A stretch of 45,722 nucleotides of DNA, taken from assembly GCA_009380095.1 (NCBI GenBank), contig WHSL01000019.1, forward strand, positions 1-45,722, read 5' to 3'. Shown piece by piece: positions 36,906 to 45,722 of the stretch. The stretch's first letter is position 1, and each line of letters starts with the position of its first letter. This DNA comes from Streptosporangiales bacterium. Its GTDB lineage: Bacteria; Actinomycetota; Actinomycetes; Streptosporangiales; Streptosporangiaceae. The notes beneath the pieces are model-generated. The model saw only the letters and a list, made by a program, of their open reading frames with translations. It was not told the DNA's origin and did not search any database. The translations under genes were made by a program, and so were the position numbers.

Positions 36906-38864
36906 TCAGCGCTCTTCGGGACCGACCGTGGTCTTCTGCACCTGCAGCAGGAACTCGGCATTGCTCCCGGTCTCCTTCATCTTCTCGATGAGGAGCTCGA
37001 GCGCCTGCTGAGCGTCGAGCGCGTGCAGCACCCGCCGGAGCTTCCAGATGACCTGGAGCTCCTCGGAGGACATGAGGATCTCTTCCTTGCGGGTGCCCGA
37101 GGGGTCGACGTCGATGGCGGGGAACACCCGCTTGTCGGCGAGCTGACGGTTCAGCCGCAGCTCCATGTTGCCGGTGCCCTTGAACTCCTCGAAGATCACC
37201 TCGTCGGCGCGGGAGCCGGTCTCCACCAGCGCGGTGGCGAGGATCGTCAGCGAGCCGCCGTTCTCGATGTTGCGCGCCGCGCCGAAGAACCGCTTCGGCG
37301 GGTAGAGCGCGGTCGAGTCGACACCACCGGACATGATGCGCCCGCTCGCCGGGGCGGCCAGGTTGTACGCGCGGCCGAGCCGGGTGATCGAGTCGAGCAA
37401 CACGACCACGTCGTGGCCCATCTCGACCAGCCGCTTGGCCCGCTCGATGGCCAGCTCCGCGACGGTGGTGTGGTCCTCCGCGGGGCGGTCGAAGGTCGAG
37501 TGGATGACCTCGCCCTTCACCGACCGCTGCATGTCGGTGACCTCTTCGGGACGCTCGTCTACGAGCACGACCATGAGGTGGCACTCGGGGTTGTTCTTGG
37601 TGATGGCGTTGGCGATCGCCTGCATCACCATGGTCTTGCCGGCCTTGGGCGGCGACACGATCAGGCCGCGCTGGCCCTTGCCGATCGGCGCGACGAGGTC
37701 GATGATCCGCGTGGTCAGGATGTTCGGCTCGGTCTCCAGCCGCAGCCGCTCCTGCGGGTACAGCGGGACGAGCTTCGAGAAGTCCTGACGGCCCTTGGCC
37801 CGGTCCGGCTCCATGCCGTTGACCGTGTCGAGGCGGACCAGCGCGTTGAACTTCTCGCGCCGCTCGCCCTCGCGCGGCTGCCGTACGGCGCCGGTGATGA
37901 CATCGCCCTTGCGGAGCCCGTTGCGGCGCACCTGGGCGAGCGAGACGTACACGTCGTTGGGGCCCGGCAGGTAGCCGGTGGTCCGCACGAAGGCGTAGTT
38001 GTCCAGGATGTCGAGGATCCCGGCGACCGGGATCAGCACGTCGTCCTCGCTGACCACGGGCTCCGACTCGCCCATGCGCTCGCGCCCGCGGCGGTCGCGG
38101 TTGCGGAACCGGCCACGGCGCCTGCGGCCGCCGCCCGAACCGTCGCCGTCGTCGTCGCCGCCCTGCCGCTGGTCGCCGCCGCGGCCACCCTGGCGGGCGT
38201 CGCCGTCGCCGCGGTCGTCGCGGTCCCGGTCGCGGCCACGACGGTTGCGCCCGCGGTCACCCTGCCGGTCGCGGCCGCCCTCGGAGCGCTCGCGCTGCTC
38301 GCCGCGCTCGCCCCGGTCACCGCGCTCGCCGCGGTCCGTGCGCTCGCTCCGCTCGCCGCCGTCGCCGGAGGCGGCCCGGTCGGCCTGGTCCTCGCCGTTG
38401 CTCCGGCGCGACCGGCGGTCGCCCCGGGCCGGCGGATCGGCGGTGGTCGTGGTCGTGTTCTGCTCGGTGCCGTCGCTCACGGCGCCCTCCTTGGCGGTGC
38501 CCCCCGCGGAACCCGCCCCGTCCGCGGTGGTCTCCTTGCCGGACTGGCCGGTGCGCCCTGGCCCCGTCCGCGTGGTCGTCGCCCTGGCGTCGCCGCCACT
38601 GGACGGGCCGCCGCCCTGCTTCTCCCGGATGGCGTCGACGAGCTGGCTCTTGCGCATACGGCCGGTGCCCTTGATGCCAAGGCCCGAGGCCATGGCCTGA
38701 AGCTCCGCGAGCTTCATGGCGGAAAGGCCGGTACCCGAGCGGCTCCGCGACCGAGTGGTGGCGGCCTCCGGGGCAGCCCCATCGGTGGCTCCGCCGGACG
38801 CGGCGGGGGTGGTCTCTCGCGCCTGATGCGGTGCGTCCGAGAGGAGTTCGGTGCTATCGCTCAC
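36906..38864 (-). CDS. rho: transcription termination factor Rho
   Basis: An RNA-dependent ATPase helicase that ends transcription. The 652-residue protein is much longer than E. coli Rho (419). Residues about 45-85 hold a Rho N-terminal SAP-like segment ([20 protein letters not shown]). A low-complexity Arg/Gly/Asp-rich insert of about 190 residues follows ([20 protein letters not shown] and similar). Then come the RNA-binding domain ([20 protein letters not shown]) and the motor core with [20 protein letters not shown] (Walker A), [16 protein letters not shown] (Walker B) and [20 protein letters not shown]. Such inserts are typical of actinobacterial Rho. The start is GTG 38864 behind GGGAAGGA. 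Confidence 0.97.
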
Positions 38865-39161: not shown

Positions 39162-40085
39162 TCACGAACCGGGGAGCTGAACGGGCGCCTGGACCTGCAG
39201 GCCGTCGAGGTCGGCGTCCAGCGGGTGTATGTGCCAACCAGTACCCGTGATACGACCGATTGAATCAGCCGTGGTCGCCGGGTTTCCCGCCTGGCCGAGG
39301 GCCAGTACGGACGGGCCCGCGCCGGAGATCACCGCCGGGACACCCACGTCCCGCAGCGCCTCGGTCAGCTCCAGCGCGGCCGGCATGGCGGGCCGCCGGT
39401 ACTCCTGGTGCAGCCGGTCCACGGTGGCGTCCATGAGCAACGCGGGGCTCCGGGTGAGCGCCACCACGAGCAGCGCGGCCCGGCCCGCGTTGAGCGCGGC
39501 GTCGCCGTACGGCACCGTGTCCGGCAGCAGGGCGCGTGCCCTCTCCGTGGAGACCCACCAGTCCGGCACGCAGATCACCGGGCGCAGCTCGGGGGACGGC
39601 GTGAGCCGGGTGGCCCGCCACTCCCCGTCCTGCGACCAGGCGATGGTCGCCCCGCCGTACGCGCACGGGGCGACGTTGTCGGGGTGCCCCTCGATCGTGG
39701 CCGCCGTACGGAACACGGCGTCCCGGTCCTCGGGGAGCCCGGCGAGCGCGCGCGCCGCGGCCACACCGGCCGTGATGGCGGCCGCCGAGGAGCCCAGCCC
39801 GCGGCTGTGCGGGATTCGGTTCACGCAGGTCAGCCGCAGCCCCGCCGGACGCGCGCCCATCGCGTCGAAGGTCGCGTGCATGGCTCGGACGACGAGGTGG
39901 CTCTCGTCGCGGCGTACATCTGCGGAGCCCTCACCGGCCACCTCGACATCGAGGCCACCATCGGCCACGCGCGCCTCGACCTCGTCGTACCGGGCGAGGG
40001 CGAGGCCGAGCGTGTCGAAGCCCGGGCCCAGGTTCGCGCTGGTGGCCGGCACGCGGACGCGCACCGGCCCGTCGATCCAGTCCAT
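39162..40085 (-). CDS. thrB: homoserine kinase
   Basis: Phosphorylates homoserine with ATP in threonine synthesis. The 307-residue GHMP kinase begins MDWIDGPVRVRVPATSANLG and has the ATP-binding loop RIPHSRGLGSSAAAITAGVA near residue 95. The C-terminal motif VPAVISGAGPSVLALG is motif 3 of the GHMP family. ATG 40085 lies 3 bases after the thrC stop, so the gene closes the nrtL-lysA-hom-thrC-thrB operon. No terminator hairpin is visible after its stop. Confidence 0.97.
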   Translation of the reverse strand: MDWIDGPVRVRVPATSANLGPGFDTLGLALARYDEVEARVADGGLDVEVAGEGSADVRRDESHLVVRAMHATFDAMGARPAGLRLTCVNRIPHSRGLGSSAAAITAGVAAARALAGLPEDRDAVFRTAATIEGHPDNVAPCAYGGATIAWSQDGEWRATRLTPSPELRPVICVPDWWVSTERARALLPDTVPYGDAALNAGRAALLVVALTRSPALLMDATVDRLHQEYRRPAMPAALELTEALRDVGVPAVISGAGPSVLALGQAGNPATTADSIGRITGTGWHIHPLDADLDGLQVQAPVQLPGS

Positions 40086-40088
40086 CGG

Positions 40089-41150
40089 CTACACCAGCTC
40101 GAGCGCGGACGCGGCGGTGTGGGCGTCGACCGGGACCACCACCGGCGCGGGCGCGCCGGACAGCGCCCAGTCCGGGTCCTTGAGGCCGTTGCCGGTCACC
40201 GTGCAGACCACGGTGGTGCCCGGCTCGATGCGGCCCTCCTCGCGGGCCTGCAGCAGGCCGGCGACGCTCGCCGCGGAGGCGAGCTCCACGAAGACCCCCT
40301 CCTCGCGGGCGAGCAGCCGGTACGCGGCGAGGATCCGCCGATCGGTGACCGCGTCGATGCGGCCGCCCGACTCCTCCCTGGCCCGCTCCGCGAGCGTCCA
40401 CGAGGCGGGGTTGCCGATCCGGATCGCGGTGGCGATGGTCTGCGGGTGCGGCACCGGCTCACCGCTCACCAGCGGCGCGGCGCCCGCGGCCTGGAAGCCG
40501 AACATCCGCGGCCGCTTCGTGCTCACGCCGTCCGCGGCGTACTCCTGGTAGCCCATCCAGTAGGCGGAGATGTTGCCCGCGTTGCCGACCGGCAGGCAGT
40601 GCACCTCGGGTGCGTCCCCGAGCGCGTCGACCACCTCGAAGGCCGCGGTCTTCTGGCCCTGCAGCCGGTACGGGTTCACCGAGTTGACCAGCGCCACCGG
40701 GTAGTCGACGGCGAGCTTGCGGGCGAGCTCGAGACAGTCGTCGAAGTTGCCGTCGACCTGGAGCAGCCGCGCCCCGTGGACCAGGGCCTGGGCCAGCTTG
40801 CCCATCGCGATCTTGCCGCGCGGCACCAGCACCGCGCAGGTCATGCCGGCGCGGACCGCGTACGCGGCCGCGCTCGCACTGGTGTTGCCGGTGGAGGCGC
40901 AGATGACGGCCTTGGCGCCCTCCTCCGCGGCCCGGCTGATGGCCATCGTCATGCCCCGGTCCTTGAAGGACCCGGTGGGGTTCAGGCCCTCCACCTTGAG
41001 GTGCACGATGCAGCCGGTCAGCGCGGAGACACGCGGCGCGGGCAGCAGCGGAGTGCCGCCCTCCAGCAGGGTCACCACGGGCGTCGTGTCCGTGACCGGG
41101 AGCCGCTCGCGGTACTCCTCGATCACGCCACGCCACGCTCTACCGCCCAC
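40089..41150 (-). CDS. thrC: threonine synthase
   Basis: A PLP enzyme that converts O-phosphohomoserine to threonine. The 353-residue protein has the PLP lysine in [20 protein letters not shown] near residue 60, the phosphate-binding [38 protein letters not shown] and the C-terminal [15 protein letters not shown]. It is the short, single-chain class common in actinobacteria. GTG 41150 has GGAGG 6 bases upstream. It sits between hom (50-base gap) and thrB (3-base gap). Confidence 0.97.
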
Positions 41151-41200: not shown

Positions 41201-42514
41201 TCAGTGCGCGGGCTCCGCCTCGGCCTCCACCCGCATCACGCTCGCCACGGCCCGTACGCTGTCCAGCCCGCGCAGCGCCTCCACGGTCGCGGCCAGCGCC
41301 GCGTCCCGCGCCCGGTGGGTGACGATGACCAGCTGCGCGTCGTCCCCGTGCCCCTCCTGGCGGACGTTCTTGATGGACACCTCATTGGAGGCGAACACCT
41401 CTGCCACCCGGGCCAGCACGCCCGGCCGGTCGGCGACGTCCAGCGCCACGTGGTAGCGGGTCACGGTGTCGCCCATCGGATGCACCCGGAGCCCGCTGTA
41501 CACCGACTCGCCGGGGCCGGAGCCGCCGTTCACCCGGTTGCGCGCGACGGCCACGAGGTCGCCGAGCACCGCGCTCGCGGTCGGCGCGCCACCCGCGCCG
41601 GCGCCGTAGAACATCAACCGGCCCGCCGACTCCGCCTCCACGAACACCGCGTTGTACGCCTCGCGCACGCCCGCCAGCGGGTGGTCGCGCGGGATCATCG
41701 CCGGGTGCACGCGCACACCGATGCCGGTGCCGTCCTCGCCGAGCTGACAGATGGCCAGCATCTTGACCACGCAGCCCATCGCCTGGGCGCTCGCGATGTC
41801 CGCGGCGCTGACGTCGACGATGCCCTCGCGATGCACCTCGGCGGCGCCCACCCGGGTGTGGAAGGCGATCCCGGCGAGGATCGCGGCCTTGGCGGCGGCG
41901 TCGAAGCCCTCGATGTCGGCCGTCGGGTCGGCCTCGGCGTAGCCCAGGGTCTGCGCCTCCTCCAGGGCCTCGCTGAAGCCGGCGCCGGAGGAGTCCATCC
42001 GGTCCAGGATGTAGTTCGTGGTGCCGTTCACGATGCCCAGCACGCGGCGCACCCGGTCCCCGGCCAGCGACTCGCGCAGCGGCCGCAGCAGCGGGATCGC
42101 GCCGGCCACGCTCGCCTCGTAGTAGAGGTCCACGCCGTACTCGGTGGCCGCGCCGTGCAGGGTCGCGCCGTCCTCGGCGAGCAGCGCCTTGTTGGCGGTG
42201 ATCACCGACTTGCCGGCCTTCATCGCGGCGAGCAGCAGCGGGCGGGCCGGTTCGAGGCCGCCCACGACCTCCACCACGATGTCCACGTCGTCGCTCGTCA
42301 CCAGGGACATCGCGTCCGTGGTGAGCAGGGCCGGGTCGATGCCCGGCCTGTCGCGGCCCGCGCGGCGCACCGCGATGCCCGCGACCTCGAGCGGCGTGCC
42401 CACCCGCGCCGCCATGTCGTCGCGCTGCTCCTGGAGCAGCCGTACGACCTGGGATCCGACGTTGCCACAGCCGAGTACGGCCACGCGCAGAGGTTTCAAT
42501 TCCACTCCGATCAC
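41201..42514 (-). CDS. hom: homoserine dehydrogenase
   Basis: Reduces aspartate semialdehyde to homoserine with NAD(P)H, the branch point to threonine and methionine. The 437-residue protein has the Rossmann start [60 protein letters not shown], and the family signature [20 protein letters not shown]. The C-terminal 75 residues form an ACT domain ([20 protein letters not shown]), which normally mediates threonine feedback. The start is GTG 42514, overlapping the lysA stop (GTGA); GTG 42505 is an alternative. Confidence 0.97.
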
Positions 42515-43896
42515 CCGACGTCCAGACGCAGCAGATCATCCTCGGTCTCCCGGCGGACGATCTCCCGGGCCGCCCCGTCGCGCACGGCCACCACCGCCGG
42601 GCGCGGGACGTGGTTGTAGTTGTTGGCCATCGACCGGCAGTAGGCCCCCGTGGCGGCCACCGCGACGAGGTCCCCCGGTGCCAGGTCCTCGGGGAGGTAC
42701 AGGTCCCGTACCACCACGTCGCCGGACTCGCAGTGCTTGCCGACGAGCCGGGAGAGCATCGGCTCGGCCTCCGACACGCGCGAGGCGACCCGGCAGGTGT
42801 AGTCGGCCCCGTACAGCGCGGTGCGGATGTTGTCGCTCATGCCGCCGTCCACGCTCACGTACGTGCGCAGGCCCTCGACGTTCTTGACCGTGCCGACCTC
42901 GTACAGCGTGACCCCGCCCGGGCCGACGATGCCCCGGCCCGGCTCGATGGTCAGCCGCGGCAGGTCGAGCCCTGCCGCCGCGCACTCCCGCGCCACGATG
43001 CCGCGGAGGTTCTCCGCGATGATCTTGATGTCCAGCGGATCGTCCGCCGATGTGTACGCGATGCCCAGGCCGCCGCCCAGGTCCATCTCGGGCAGCGCGA
43101 CGCCGTGCTCGGTCTTGATCTCCGCGAGCAGGCCGGCCACCCGGCGGGCCGCGACCTCGAAGCCCGCGGTGTCGAAGATCTGCGAGCCGATGTGGGAGTG
43201 CAGGCCGACCAGTTCCAGCTGCGGGAGCGCGAGCACGCGGCGGACGGCCTCGGCCGCGTCGCCCATGGCCAGGGAGAAGCCGAACTTCTGGTCGTCGTGC
43301 GCGGTCGCCACGTACTCGTGCGTGTGCGCCTCCACGCCGGCCGTGACGCGGATCTGCACCTTGGCCCGTACGCCGAGCTCCTGGGCGAGGAACCCGACGC
43401 GGGCGATCTCCTCGTACGAGTCCAGCACGATGCGGCCGACGCCCGCCTCCAGCGCCCGGCGCAGCTCGGGGACCGACTTGTTGTTGCCGTGCATCGTGAT
43501 CCGCTCGGCGGGGAACTCCGCGGCCAGCGCCACCGCCAGCTCACCCCCCGTGCACACGTCGAGGTTCAGGCCTTCTTCCTGGACCCAGCGGAGCACCGCC
43601 TTGGAGCAGAACGCCTTCGCCGCGTAGAACACGTCCGCGTCGCCGAAGGCCGTCTTGTAGTCGCGGCAGCGGGACCGGAAGTCCTCCTCGTCGAGCACGA
43701 TCAGCGCGGTGCCGTAGCGCTCGGTGAGCTCGCGGACGTCCACGCCGCCGATCGTGAGCACGCCGTCCTCGCGTTGCGCCGTACGCGGCCAGACCATCGG
43801 GTCGAGCGTGTTCAGATCGGCGGGCGGCCGGGGCGGATTCTCCTCGGGCAGCACGTCGGCGTGGCGGGAACCGGCAGGATGCGCGTAGCGGCTCAC
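42511..43896 (-). CDS. lysA: diaminopimelate decarboxylase
   Basis: A PLP enzyme of the alanine-racemase fold that decarboxylates meso-diaminopimelate to lysine. The 461-residue protein has the PLP lysine in [17 protein letters not shown] near residue 92, the HGNNKS segment, [36 protein letters not shown], and the Cys/Glu active-site segment [15 protein letters not shown]. The start is GTG 43896 behind AGGAAAG. It lies 44 bases after nrtL and overlaps hom. Confidence 0.97.
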
Positions 43897-43940
43897 GGTC
43901 TTTCCTCAGGTAGCGGGTCGGCGGAATCGGTTCGGCGGGC

Positions 43941-45071
43941 TCACATGCGGTCCGGCACCGCCACGCCGAGCATGGCGAGCCCGGCGGCCAACGTCGTTCG
44001 TACGGCCGCGGTGAGCAGGACGCGCGAACGGTGCATATCGGTCACGGGCTCGGGCCCGCGGGGCAGCACCCGGCCGGTGTCGGCCAGCCGGTGGTAGGCG
44101 GCGGCCGTCGTCTCGAGGTGCCGGGTGAGAACGGTGACGTCGCGGCGGCGGGCCGCCAGGGCGACCCGGTCCGGCAGCTCGGCGACGGCGGCCAGCACGG
44201 CGCGCTCGTGGGCGTCGGTGAAGCGGCCCGGTTCTGTCGTATCGGGGTCGACGCCGAGGTCGTGCGCGTGACGGAGGGTGAGGTGGGCGTGGGCGCAGGC
44301 GTACCTGACCTCGAACGCCGCCTCCCCCCGGACCCGCCGGCACCGCTCCTCGAGCTCGTTCGGCGCGCCCGGGTGCCGCTCAGCGAGCTCGCCCGGCGCG
44401 CGGGGTGGCTGCGCGACCGGCCCACGCCGGGCGGTGGCGGTCGATTCCGGCGCGCGCGTCAGCACGTACCGCAGCGCGGGTTCCTCCCCACGCGCCACAA
44501 AGGAACTCAAAGCAGTGCTGGCGGCCTCGGAAGCGGCGGATTCCTCGACCCGGGCGGCCCCGTCCCGAAGGACTTCCCCCGGATCCGGTTGGCCGGTCCA
44601 GGTGACGTGGGCGCCGGCGGCTTCGGCGATCCGGGCGAGGGCCTCGTCCTTGACGCGGCGGGCGGCGGTGGGCACGTCGGGCGCGGTGGCCAGATCGCCT
44701 GCGATCGACGCGGTCATGTGAGCGCCGTCCAGCGCGCGGCTCCGGCCGTACGCCGCGCCCGCCGCGACGACCGCGGCGGCCAGCGCGACCGTGTCGACGA
44801 GGGTGAGCGCCAGCACACCCCGCTCCCCGACCGCGGCCCGGCTGATGCCCGGCGTCGCGCCGAGCCGGGCCGCCAGCACCTCCGCCACCTCCTGGGCAGG
44901 CCGCGCGGCGGCCCCGGCCAGCTGCAGCGGCAACGCACACGTGTAGTCCCCGGCCCCCACCGCCACCGGCCGCAGCGCCAGGTCGGACGGCACGGGCAGC
45001 CCAAGCCCGCCGTCCGCGGGGGCCGCGGCCACGGCCTCCGCAACGGCGCCGGTCAGCGCGGCAGGGGTCAC
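43941..45071 (-). CDS. nrtL: ArgS-related anticodon-binding protein NrtL
   Basis: A 376-residue relative of arginyl-tRNA synthetase without the catalytic domain. The N-terminal 90 or so residues resemble the ArgRS N-terminal additional domain (YTCALPLQLAGAAARPAQEV), and the C-terminal 130 resemble its DALR anticodon-binding domain (FEVRYACAHAHLTLRHAHDL, and the ending AVRTTLAAGLAMLGVAVPDRM-like tail). HIGH and KMSKS motifs are absent. Actinomycetes carry such proteins directly upstream of lysA, as here. The role is unknown; binding tRNA-Arg or sensing amino-acid supply is inference. The start is GTG 45071. A Pro/Arg-rich linker lies near residues 215-240. Confidence 0.85.
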   Translation of the reverse strand: MTPAALTGAVAEAVAAAPADGGLGLPVPSDLALRPVAVGAGDYTCALPLQLAGAAARPAQEVAEVLAARLGATPGISRAAVGERGVLALTLVDTVALAAAVVAAGAAYGRSRALDGAHMTASIAGDLATAPDVPTAARRVKDEALARIAEAAGAHVTWTGQPDPGEVLRDGAARVEESAASEAASTALSSFVARGEEPALRYVLTRAPESTATARRGPVAQPPRAPGELAERHPGAPNELEERCRRVRGEAAFEVRYACAHAHLTLRHAHDLGVDPDTTEPGRFTDAHERAVLAAVAELPDRVALAARRRDVTVLTRHLETTAAAYHRLADTGRVLPRGPEPVTDMHRSRVLLTAAVRTTLAAGLAMLGVAVPDRM

Positions 45072-45169
45072 GTCAAACGAGGCTAGTCGAACCCACTGAC
45101 AGCCCGTTCACCCATATCAACTGCTGAGACACAACCCACCCCGGACAAACCGCTCCGGGCAGTACGGAT

Positions 45170-45202
45170 CGGCTCAACCAGCCGGCGGGACCGGCCGAGC
45201 CG
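45170..45202 (-). terminator. hairpin downstream of the SMP-30 remnant
   Basis: CGGCTC at 45170-45175 pairs with GAGCCG at 45197-45202, with an inner GCCGG/CCGGC stem. It lies 5 bases after the stop of the SMP-30 fragment, as its old terminator. A smaller CCCGGA/TCCGGG hairpin follows at about 45139-45159. Confidence 0.55.
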
Positions 45203-45207
45203 CGTCC

Positions 45208-45584
45208 TCAAACGCCCGGCGCGGGAGCCGGGAACGCCACGATCTGCCCGCTGGGTTCGGTCTGCTCGGGTCCGCCGTAGTTCTGGGCGACGACGTACAG
45301 CAGCGGGTCCTCTCCCCGGCTGAGCGCGCAGGCGAAGGCGCTCCGGTCCAGGTCGACCGTGGCCACCACCTCACCCCCCTCACGCACCCGCACACAGTGC
45401 CGATTGCCCACGTCCGCGTACCAGACCGCGCCCTCCGCGTCGACGCAGATCCCGTCCGGATGGTCCCCGGGCGTCTTGGCCCATACCTGCCGGCCACTTC
45501 CCGGACTGTGCCGTCCGGCGTGACGCGTACGACCAGGCCCGGCGCGAACTCACCGCCGGGGAAGTCGAAGCCGATGGTGTTGAC
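45208..45584 (-). pseudogene. SMP-30/gluconolactonase-type gene, truncated and deleted
   Basis: Fragments of a lactonase beta-propeller protein. From 45584 one frame reads VNTIGFDFPGGEFAPGLVVR and VTPDGTVREVAGR. At about 45485-45498 the frame changes and continues RQVWAKTPGDHPDGICVDAE, GAVWYADVGNRHCVRVREGG and EVVATVDLDRSAFACALSRG to the normal C-terminus (QIVAFPAPAPGV, stop 45208). Intact relatives have roughly 35-45 residues between the two blocks (the FPNGMAV...AESYGNRL region), so an internal deletion with frame loss has occurred. The first half or so of the gene is missing where insertion-sequence DNA begins at about 45585. It cannot be functional. Confidence 0.82.
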
Positions 45585-45722
45585 CTAGTACTACATAGCT
45601 AGATCTGGATGATCTGGAGTCGCAGGCGTCGCTTGAAGTGGTGTCTGCGCGCTGTGGCTTGGTGGGCTCGGCGGTGCTGGGACCAGTAAAGTCCCTGTTC
45701 AACGGTGTGGTCGGGTTGTCCG
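45585..45722 (-). mobile_element. end of an insertion sequence (continues beyond the window)
   Basis: The SMP-30 homology stops abruptly at about 45584, followed by CTAG and a sequence of clearly lower GC content. Inside, a reading frame enters from the right edge and ends at TAG 45599-45601, so this is the 3' end of a transposable element. The CTAG at the junction (45585-45588) could be the target-site duplication; 4-base YTAR targets are known for IS701-type elements. The outer terminal repeat would start at 45589. Confidence 0.65.
45599..45722 (-). CDS. transposase C-terminus (partial)
   Basis: Only the last 40 residues are in the window: GQPDHTVEQGLYWSQHRRAH, then QATARRHHFKRRLRLQIIQI and stop. 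The basic, aromatic tail with WSxHRRxHQA resembles the C-termini of IS701/IS4-type DDE transposases of actinomycetes. None of the catalytic residues are visible, so the family is tentative. The gene extends past the right window edge. Confidence 0.55.
   Translation of the reverse strand, partial: GQPDHTVEQGLYWSQHRRAHQATARRHHFKRRLRLQIIQI

Follow-up and report, generated by a model that had tools for sequence, protein, structure and literature searches.

The window, by which we mean the whole 45,722-nucleotide stretch of DNA analysed here, carries an nrtL-like gene at the head of a lysine and threonine biosynthesis operon. The nrtL-like gene (43941..45071, minus strand) is an intact open reading frame of 376 residues with a GTG start. 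Its stop lies 44 nt from the start of lysA, encoding diaminopimelate decarboxylase (42511..43896, minus strand; TIGR01048, 463 bits against a cut-off of 298), which overlaps by 4 nt with hom, encoding homoserine dehydrogenase (41201..42514, minus strand). Next come thrC, threonine synthase (40089..41150, minus strand; PALP domain), and thrB, homoserine kinase (39162..40085, minus strand; GHMP kinase domain), both named from their place in the operon. The transcription terminator gene rho (36906..38864) lies further downstream on the same strand. The order nrtL-lysA-hom-thrC-thrB is the same as in Streptomyces. An Rfam scan of positions 42000-45722, made to look for a riboswitch or T-box around nrtL and lysA, gave no match up to E 1.

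Upstream of nrtL, at 45208-45584 on the minus strand, lies the C-terminal portion of a gene resembling SMP-30/gluconolactonase (PF08450, 35.7 bits), which is spread over two frames and incomplete on the side facing the contig end. The last 140 or so bases of the contig resemble, by eye, the edge of a mobile element. There is no tRNA-Arg gene beside nrtL in the window; since only 651 nt of contig remain upstream, such a gene may lie outside it.

The encoded protein has both ends of an arginyl-tRNA synthetase (ArgRS) and lacks the catalytic middle. Its N-terminal D-loop-binding (or 'additional') domain covers residues 1 to about 110 (44742..45071, minus strand) and is recognized by profile, by fold and by a Pfam match slightly short of the cut-off (Arg_tRNA_synt_N, 18.9 bits against 21.5). 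The protein starts VTPAAL, where its lysA-linked ArgRS counterpart reads VTPADL. What is left of the Rossmann catalytic fold is one β-α-β unit (44592..44726, minus strand; strand 118-122, helix 133-151, strand 155-159), from which the HIGH motif is gone. A linker, partly predicted at low confidence (44358..44591, minus strand), then takes the place of some 255-295 core residues of ArgRS, KMSKS included. The helical C-terminal region (43944..44357, minus strand) contains the DALR anticodon-binding domain, matches Pfam DALR_1 well above the cut-off (50.6 bits against 22.3, residues 255-376) and ends ArgRS-like in PDRM.

A profile built from 86 ArgRSs encoded upstream of lysA in other genomes gives the same picture. 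Residues 1-157 of the window protein align with profile positions 16-176 and residues 244-376 with positions 433-567, and the intervening core is absent. At the HIGH positions, where the alignment is loose, V and T replace H and G, and the KMSKS segment falls in the missing part. The protein therefore has neither signature motif nor the complete class Ia core of an ArgRS enzyme.

NCBIfam has a name for such proteins. The model NF045898, 'ArgS-related anticodon-binding protein NrtL', is matched end to end (1-327 of 327) by the window protein, at 154 bits and E 6.4e-45, which is below the curated equivalog cut-off of 340. Score alone is a weak test of membership or architecture here, since a core-containing ArgRS from the same order as the window scores 295 bits against this model. 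The architecture does agree: the match is full-length, the N-terminal and DALR parts are present and the core is absent. So does the gene's place directly before lysA-hom-thrC-thrB, a criterion that we added ourselves. The window protein is 29-42% identical to the NrtLs with which we compared it. Length varies widely within its own family (f1), from 207-282 residues in several other genera to 359-463 in others; in the short forms the N-terminal domain, often trimmed, is joined almost straight to the DALR part.

Structure prediction, which the initial annotation had proposed as a check, shows the anticodon-binding bundle in place. The AlphaFold (AF2) model, made from an alignment of 40 of the 81 available sequences, has a mean pLDDT of 84.8 and a pTM of 0.78, and comprises the N-terminal domain, a single Rossmann β-α-β unit, the linker and the DALR helical bundle; pLDDT falls to blocks of 51-65 in the linker, over residues 161-180 and 211-250. 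The top structural hit is the tRNA-bound Pyrococcus ArgRS (PDB: 2zue; Z 22.1, rmsd 4.2 Å for 339 residues). Moreover, the best 15 matches are all ArgRSs, as are the best 24 from Foldseek. The N-terminal domain superposes on 3gdz with Z 10.0 (98 residues at 2.3 Å), and we accept this domain on the strength of that fold match despite its Pfam score. Whole-length Foldseek superposition on 2zue is poor (rmsd 13 Å), as expected for a protein that has lost its core. A profile of the NrtL family searched against solved structures matches Pyrococcus ArgRS residues 26-163 and 459-629 and leaves the stretch between them unmatched. The first description of the gene from the bare sequence, as a catalytically empty ArgRS relative that keeps the N-terminal and DALR parts and is co-directional with and close to lysA-hom-thrC-thrB, is thus borne out in each of these respects.

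We then asked what stands before lysA elsewhere. In a sample of 138 genomes of the class, the gene upstream of lysA could be read in 136 (one genome lacked lysA, and another had a weak lysA that was not fetched); these counts exclude two hand-added loci that did not belong to the sample (L196, L197). An ArgRS with its core lies upstream of lysA in 99 of the 136 genomes, within 300 nt in 94 of them and at 756-2070 nt in five; 16 of these 99 were incomplete in the retrieved stretch and were assigned by the visible core. An NrtL-like frame takes that position in 26 genomes, of which the weaker cases are G133 (26 bits), G172 (frame-broken) and G401 (1 kb from lysA). In four more genomes the upstream gene is cut by the end of the stretch or contig (two ArgRS-like, two NrtL-like). 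The remaining seven have neither: one contig ends there, one has nrtL about 9 kb off, one has a diverged frame, three encode ArgRS elsewhere and one has it further upstream. The usual gene order in the class is argS-lysA, as in Brevibacterium lactofermentum, for which Oguiza et al. described the cluster and its control by arginine in 1993 (cited in PMC7923171).

All 12 sampled Streptomycetaceae have an NrtL-like frame before lysA; in one of the 12 (G172; loci L020 and L075) it is broken into two frames, either because the copy is decaying or through an error in sequencing. Among the matches listed, which cover 80 of 393 named NrtL loci (77 of the 80 from Streptomyces or Actinacidiphila), lysA is adjacent to nrtL in all 80, with a spacing of 8-56 nt in 69. 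The nrtL-lysA neighbourhood, whose conservation the initial annotation had wished to see surveyed, is therefore conserved. In the genus g249 the two genes have come apart: nrtL is parted from lysA by one gene in G401 (L340) and by about 9 kb in G409 (L339), and is still open in both. A further variant occurs in family f6, where frames of 349 residues (L158, G133) and 277 residues (L179, G260) lie between a tRNA-Arg(CCG) gene and lysA. The first matches the ArgRS profile at 26 bits and the second not at all, although both have C-termini that look DALR-like by eye. They are possibly another, fast-evolving conversion to NrtL, and both genomes encode the second type of ArgRS described below.

The far neighbour of nrtL is shared with argS. 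A tRNA-Arg(CCG) gene lies upstream of 42 of 84 whole argS genes and of 6 of 21 whole nrtL genes (nine of the 15 misses had under 1 kb to inspect), and was found at 50 of the 56 named NrtL loci scanned, themselves part of the 80 listed of 393. It sits on the far side of both argS and nrtL, mostly in divergent orientation. We dropped the adjacent tRNA-Arg gene as a clue to NrtL function because argS with an intact core has the same neighbour.

Genomes with nrtL have a second ArgRS. The window genome encodes a separate, complete ArgRS on another contig (C142), in a stop-free frame of 581 residues (TIGR00456, 491 bits against a cut-off of 262). This enzyme represents a lineage that we call type B, with KILRTRAG at the KMSKS site; type A is the lysA-linked ArgRS, with a KMSKS motif of the MSKR type, and the two are about 30% identical. 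Calling type B at 50% identity or more and over 500 bits, we found it in 42 of 138 genomes: in 26 of 26 with an NrtL-like frame at lysA, compared with 10 of 99 with a type A ArgRS there. A second ArgRS beside NrtL is to be expected, because the first is dead. The stages can be seen side by side in family f94, which has genomes with type A only (for example G567, G620, G625, G595 and G610), with both types (G605), and with NrtL and type B (G590, G600 and G555). Both lineages also occur together in family f95 (7 of 12 sampled), G049 and G618, and G596 has two type B copies.

NrtL groups with type A. We built trees on 262 shared columns, one with all 161 rows and a more careful one with 46 of the 161 (bootstrap not settled), and in both the NrtLs branch inside type A, not type B, at more than one place. 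Descent of the window NrtL from its own genome's ArgRS is rejected (AU test, p 6e-11), as is a grouping of the window-family NrtLs with the type B enzymes of their own kind (p 1e-15). A single clade of all NrtLs is likewise rejected (p 1.6e-4), and so is a single clade of the three f94 NrtLs (p 1.4e-5). For a tree that puts the f1 NrtLs at the stem, alongside all type B enzymes, the rejection reaches only p 0.03; the deep placement of these long-branched sequences is sensitive to long branches. The NrtL of locus L023 (f11) also sits on a long branch.

The tree requires no fewer than five changes of state, a count that by itself does not separate loss from gain. We infer that the direction was loss of the core and not its regain, and this conversion appears to have taken place repeatedly among actinobacteria. 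A genome from another family of the window's order (G396) has a type A ArgRS as well as a type B match in a 504-residue frame, which suggests that the f1 and the Streptomyces NrtLs arose twice. The operon link of NrtL with lysA is inherited from argS. Because these neighbours were inherited, lysA-hom-thrC-thrB by themselves are no argument for a role of NrtL in lysine or threonine synthesis. The new link between tRNA charging and amino-acid synthesis that had been read from the locus thus comes down mostly to ancestry: the place before lysA was that of argS, and 99 of 136 genomes still keep an ArgRS with its core there.

The two retained domains have kept many, but not all, of the residues expected to touch tRNA. 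Residue numbers of E. coli ArgRS were placed on our alignment by way of what we take to be the E. coli sequence. The residues around A20 of tRNA-Arg in that enzyme are F36, Q40, A78, F82 and N84, according to a passage in PMC8975779. In the window protein F82 has become V and N84 has become A, so that the pocket has lost two of its residues. By contrast, Streptomyces NrtLs have the F82 equivalent in 18 of 18 cases and the N84 equivalent in 17 of 18, and both are kept in the three f94 NrtLs. Across the window's family the F82 equivalent is found in 22 of 28 and the N84 equivalent in about 5 of 28.

Type A has 52 DALR sites of 90% constancy, and the window protein retains 30 of them; in the N-terminal domain it retains 10 of 21 constant sites. 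On average, f1 and f3 NrtLs keep 63% and 66% of the constant DALR sites as against 18% and 13% at variable sites. One of the constant sites has changed in a consistent way: ArgRS model position 445, the glutamine of the VQYAHAR helix, is near-constant in both ArgRS types and is arginine in most NrtLs, namely in 30 of 32 from f1 and 16 of 18 from f3 (46 of 50 together, the window protein included). This parallel or shared change may mark a new function. Charge has changed too. The median pI of the last 137 residues, with duplicate loci counted, is 8.1 and 7.3 in NrtLs against 5.7 and 5.1 in ArgRSs, and that of the window protein is 8.9; over its full length the window protein is not basic, with a pI of 6.3 and a net charge of -4. 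The DALR part has thus shifted from acidic to neutral or basic, although drift towards arginine at high GC may be the sole cause.

From these residues NrtL would appear to be a retained but retuned tRNA-binding shell. The ligand is most likely still tRNA-Arg in Streptomyces, whereas reading of the D-loop appears to have been relaxed in the window's family. As a prediction tRNA-Arg remains the likely ligand overall, and it is least sure for the window protein, with Val and Ala in place of the Phe and Asn of the A20 pocket.

Is the gene under selection? Across 30 disjoint Streptomycetaceae pairs, dN/dS of nrtL ranges from 0.22 to 0.62 with a median of 0.41 and is under 1 in all 30; that of lysA is 0.11. 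Pooled by region, the value is 0.37 for the N-terminal domain, 0.55 for the middle and 0.35 for DALR, and DALR lies below the middle in 24 of 30 pairs. In the window's own family, across five genera, the median is 0.385 and 41 of 41 counted, non-independent pairs lie below 1 (lysA, 0.17); one of 42 pairs was dropped because its dS exceeded 1.5 (its dN/dS was 0.32). Neutral simulations at matching GC gave medians of 1.08-1.35 and a lowest value of 0.75, at a dS that reached only about 0.18 and so stayed below that of most real pairs. The single g249 pair (G401/G409), with nrtL away from lysA, gives 0.54. Since nrtL has a dN/dS two to four times that of lysA, the constraint is loose. Nevertheless, nrtL is not a dead gene, and its N-terminal D-loop and DALR domains are under purifying selection.

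We propose that NrtL is a decatalysed descendant of the actinobacterial argS that preceded lysA, and that it is now a putative non-enzymatic tRNA-binding protein, most likely for tRNA-Arg; on balance we favour this account, with modest confidence. Type B ArgRS would have taken over the charging of tRNA-Arg and thereby released type A from catalysis. The type A protein would then have lost its catalytic core, and its tRNA-holding shell, being useful, would have been retained. Gripping the anticodon stem and the D-arm, NrtL would serve as an adaptor, a chaperone or a sequestering factor. Without a core it would not cover the acceptor end of a bound tRNA, and that tRNA would stay available for charging, modification or storage. 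More tentatively, and as a conjecture in which we place less than even trust, a redundant ArgRS may repeatedly and independently have become a core-less, selected 'tRNA clamp' of D-loop and anticodon domains. Such proteins would form a convergent and undescribed class of tRNA-Arg accessory factors that steer how tRNA-Arg, possibly the neighbouring CCG isoacceptor, is used, modified or made available.

The main rival is that nrtL is a functionless relic. Its frame would stay open only because it comes first in an essential operon, where Rho-dependent polarity and translational coupling to lysA would tolerate in-frame shrinkage and nothing else. The tight spacing to lysA in the listed loci fits this idea, as do the rapid divergence of the frame and its reduction to 207-282 residues in several window-family genera, and the hardly recognizable frames that still occupy the slot in f6. 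However, a dN/dS of about 0.4, below 1 in every counted pair, differs from the 0.75 or more of every neutral simulation, and in Streptomycetaceae it is lower in both tRNA-contacting domains than in the middle. Moreover, the g249 genes remain open though apart from lysA, and in G172 the frame is broken ahead of lysA and lysA remains. We consider a relic unlikely, while taking it seriously.

A second alternative holds that NrtL is a regulatory subunit or sensor of the lysine/threonine pathway, or that it senses tRNA and so regulates the operon in which it lies. HisZ, the model for such a subunit, retains a catalytic-type fold and is without an anticodon domain; NrtL keeps the opposite parts. The constant adjacency of lysA in the 80 listed loci is what this alternative would predict, and there is a precedent in HisZ, a HisRS paralog and regulator of HisG, which demonstrates that a synthetase paralog may turn into a subunit of a biosynthetic enzyme (PMC9437257). 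A passage of PMC7923171 says that corynebacterial argS is induced by arginine and repressed by lysine. Yet the adjacency is older than NrtL and hence no evidence of a functional tie to lysA, the two genes are parted in g249, and the Rfam scan around nrtL and lysA was empty. A regulator of this kind is improbable.

It is also decidedly improbable that NrtL is a partner of type B ArgRS, binding tRNA-Arg or the enzyme and aiding its charging. NrtL never occurs in our sample without type B (26 of 26), but that dependence follows already from ArgRS being essential, and the 10 of 99 type A genomes that also hold type B have it without NrtL. Finally, the contig end 651 nt upstream, the fragment there split over two frames and the one broken Streptomyces copy elsewhere might suggest that nrtL is a normal argS ruined by pseudogenization, a frameshift or misassembly. 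The 376-residue frame is intact, however, many genera have homologues of this architecture, and selection is purifying, which makes such a reading scarcely credible.

A decatalysed tRNA-binding protein therefore remains our preferred reading, and the surprise that is left is the parallel, selected retention of both tRNA-holding domains without the enzyme. In place of the guessed metabolic link we suggest an evolutionary rule: in genomes that have a second ArgRS, the one linked to lysA may drop its core and keep its tRNA-holding shell. These parallel results suggest that the shell of the intact enzyme was already serving a further purpose, a point that would bear on the essential ArgRSs that are still in the operon.

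The open-licence literature yielded no paper on the function or description of NrtL, whose family name exists in NCBIfam; in the parts of the 2022 review PMC9437257 available to us, 'ArgRS' is absent and 'arginyl-tRNA synthetase' appears once. Four known systems allow comparison. With the NF045898 family the window protein shares its domain make-up, a full-length match and the Streptomyces gene order, and it differs in its score (154 against 340 bits), its identity of 29-42% and its loss of the A20-pocket Phe and Asn. With type A ArgRS, its parent lineage in the tree, NrtL shares the slot before lysA and the N- and C-terminal domains; unlike type A it has no core, HIGH or KMSKS and is not an enzyme. 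HisZ is similar in being a synthetase paralog tied to amino-acid biosynthesis, and opposite in the parts of the synthetase that it keeps.

The closest working parallel is vertebrate DALRD3. This core-less protein with a DALR domain binds tRNA-Arg-CCU and -UCU and brings in the methyltransferase METTL2, as set out in a section of PMC7237682. Like NrtL, it is catalytically empty and has the ArgRS DALR domain. The two differ at the other end, where the same section reports no recognizable motif in DALRD3 and NrtL keeps the D-loop domain of ArgRS.
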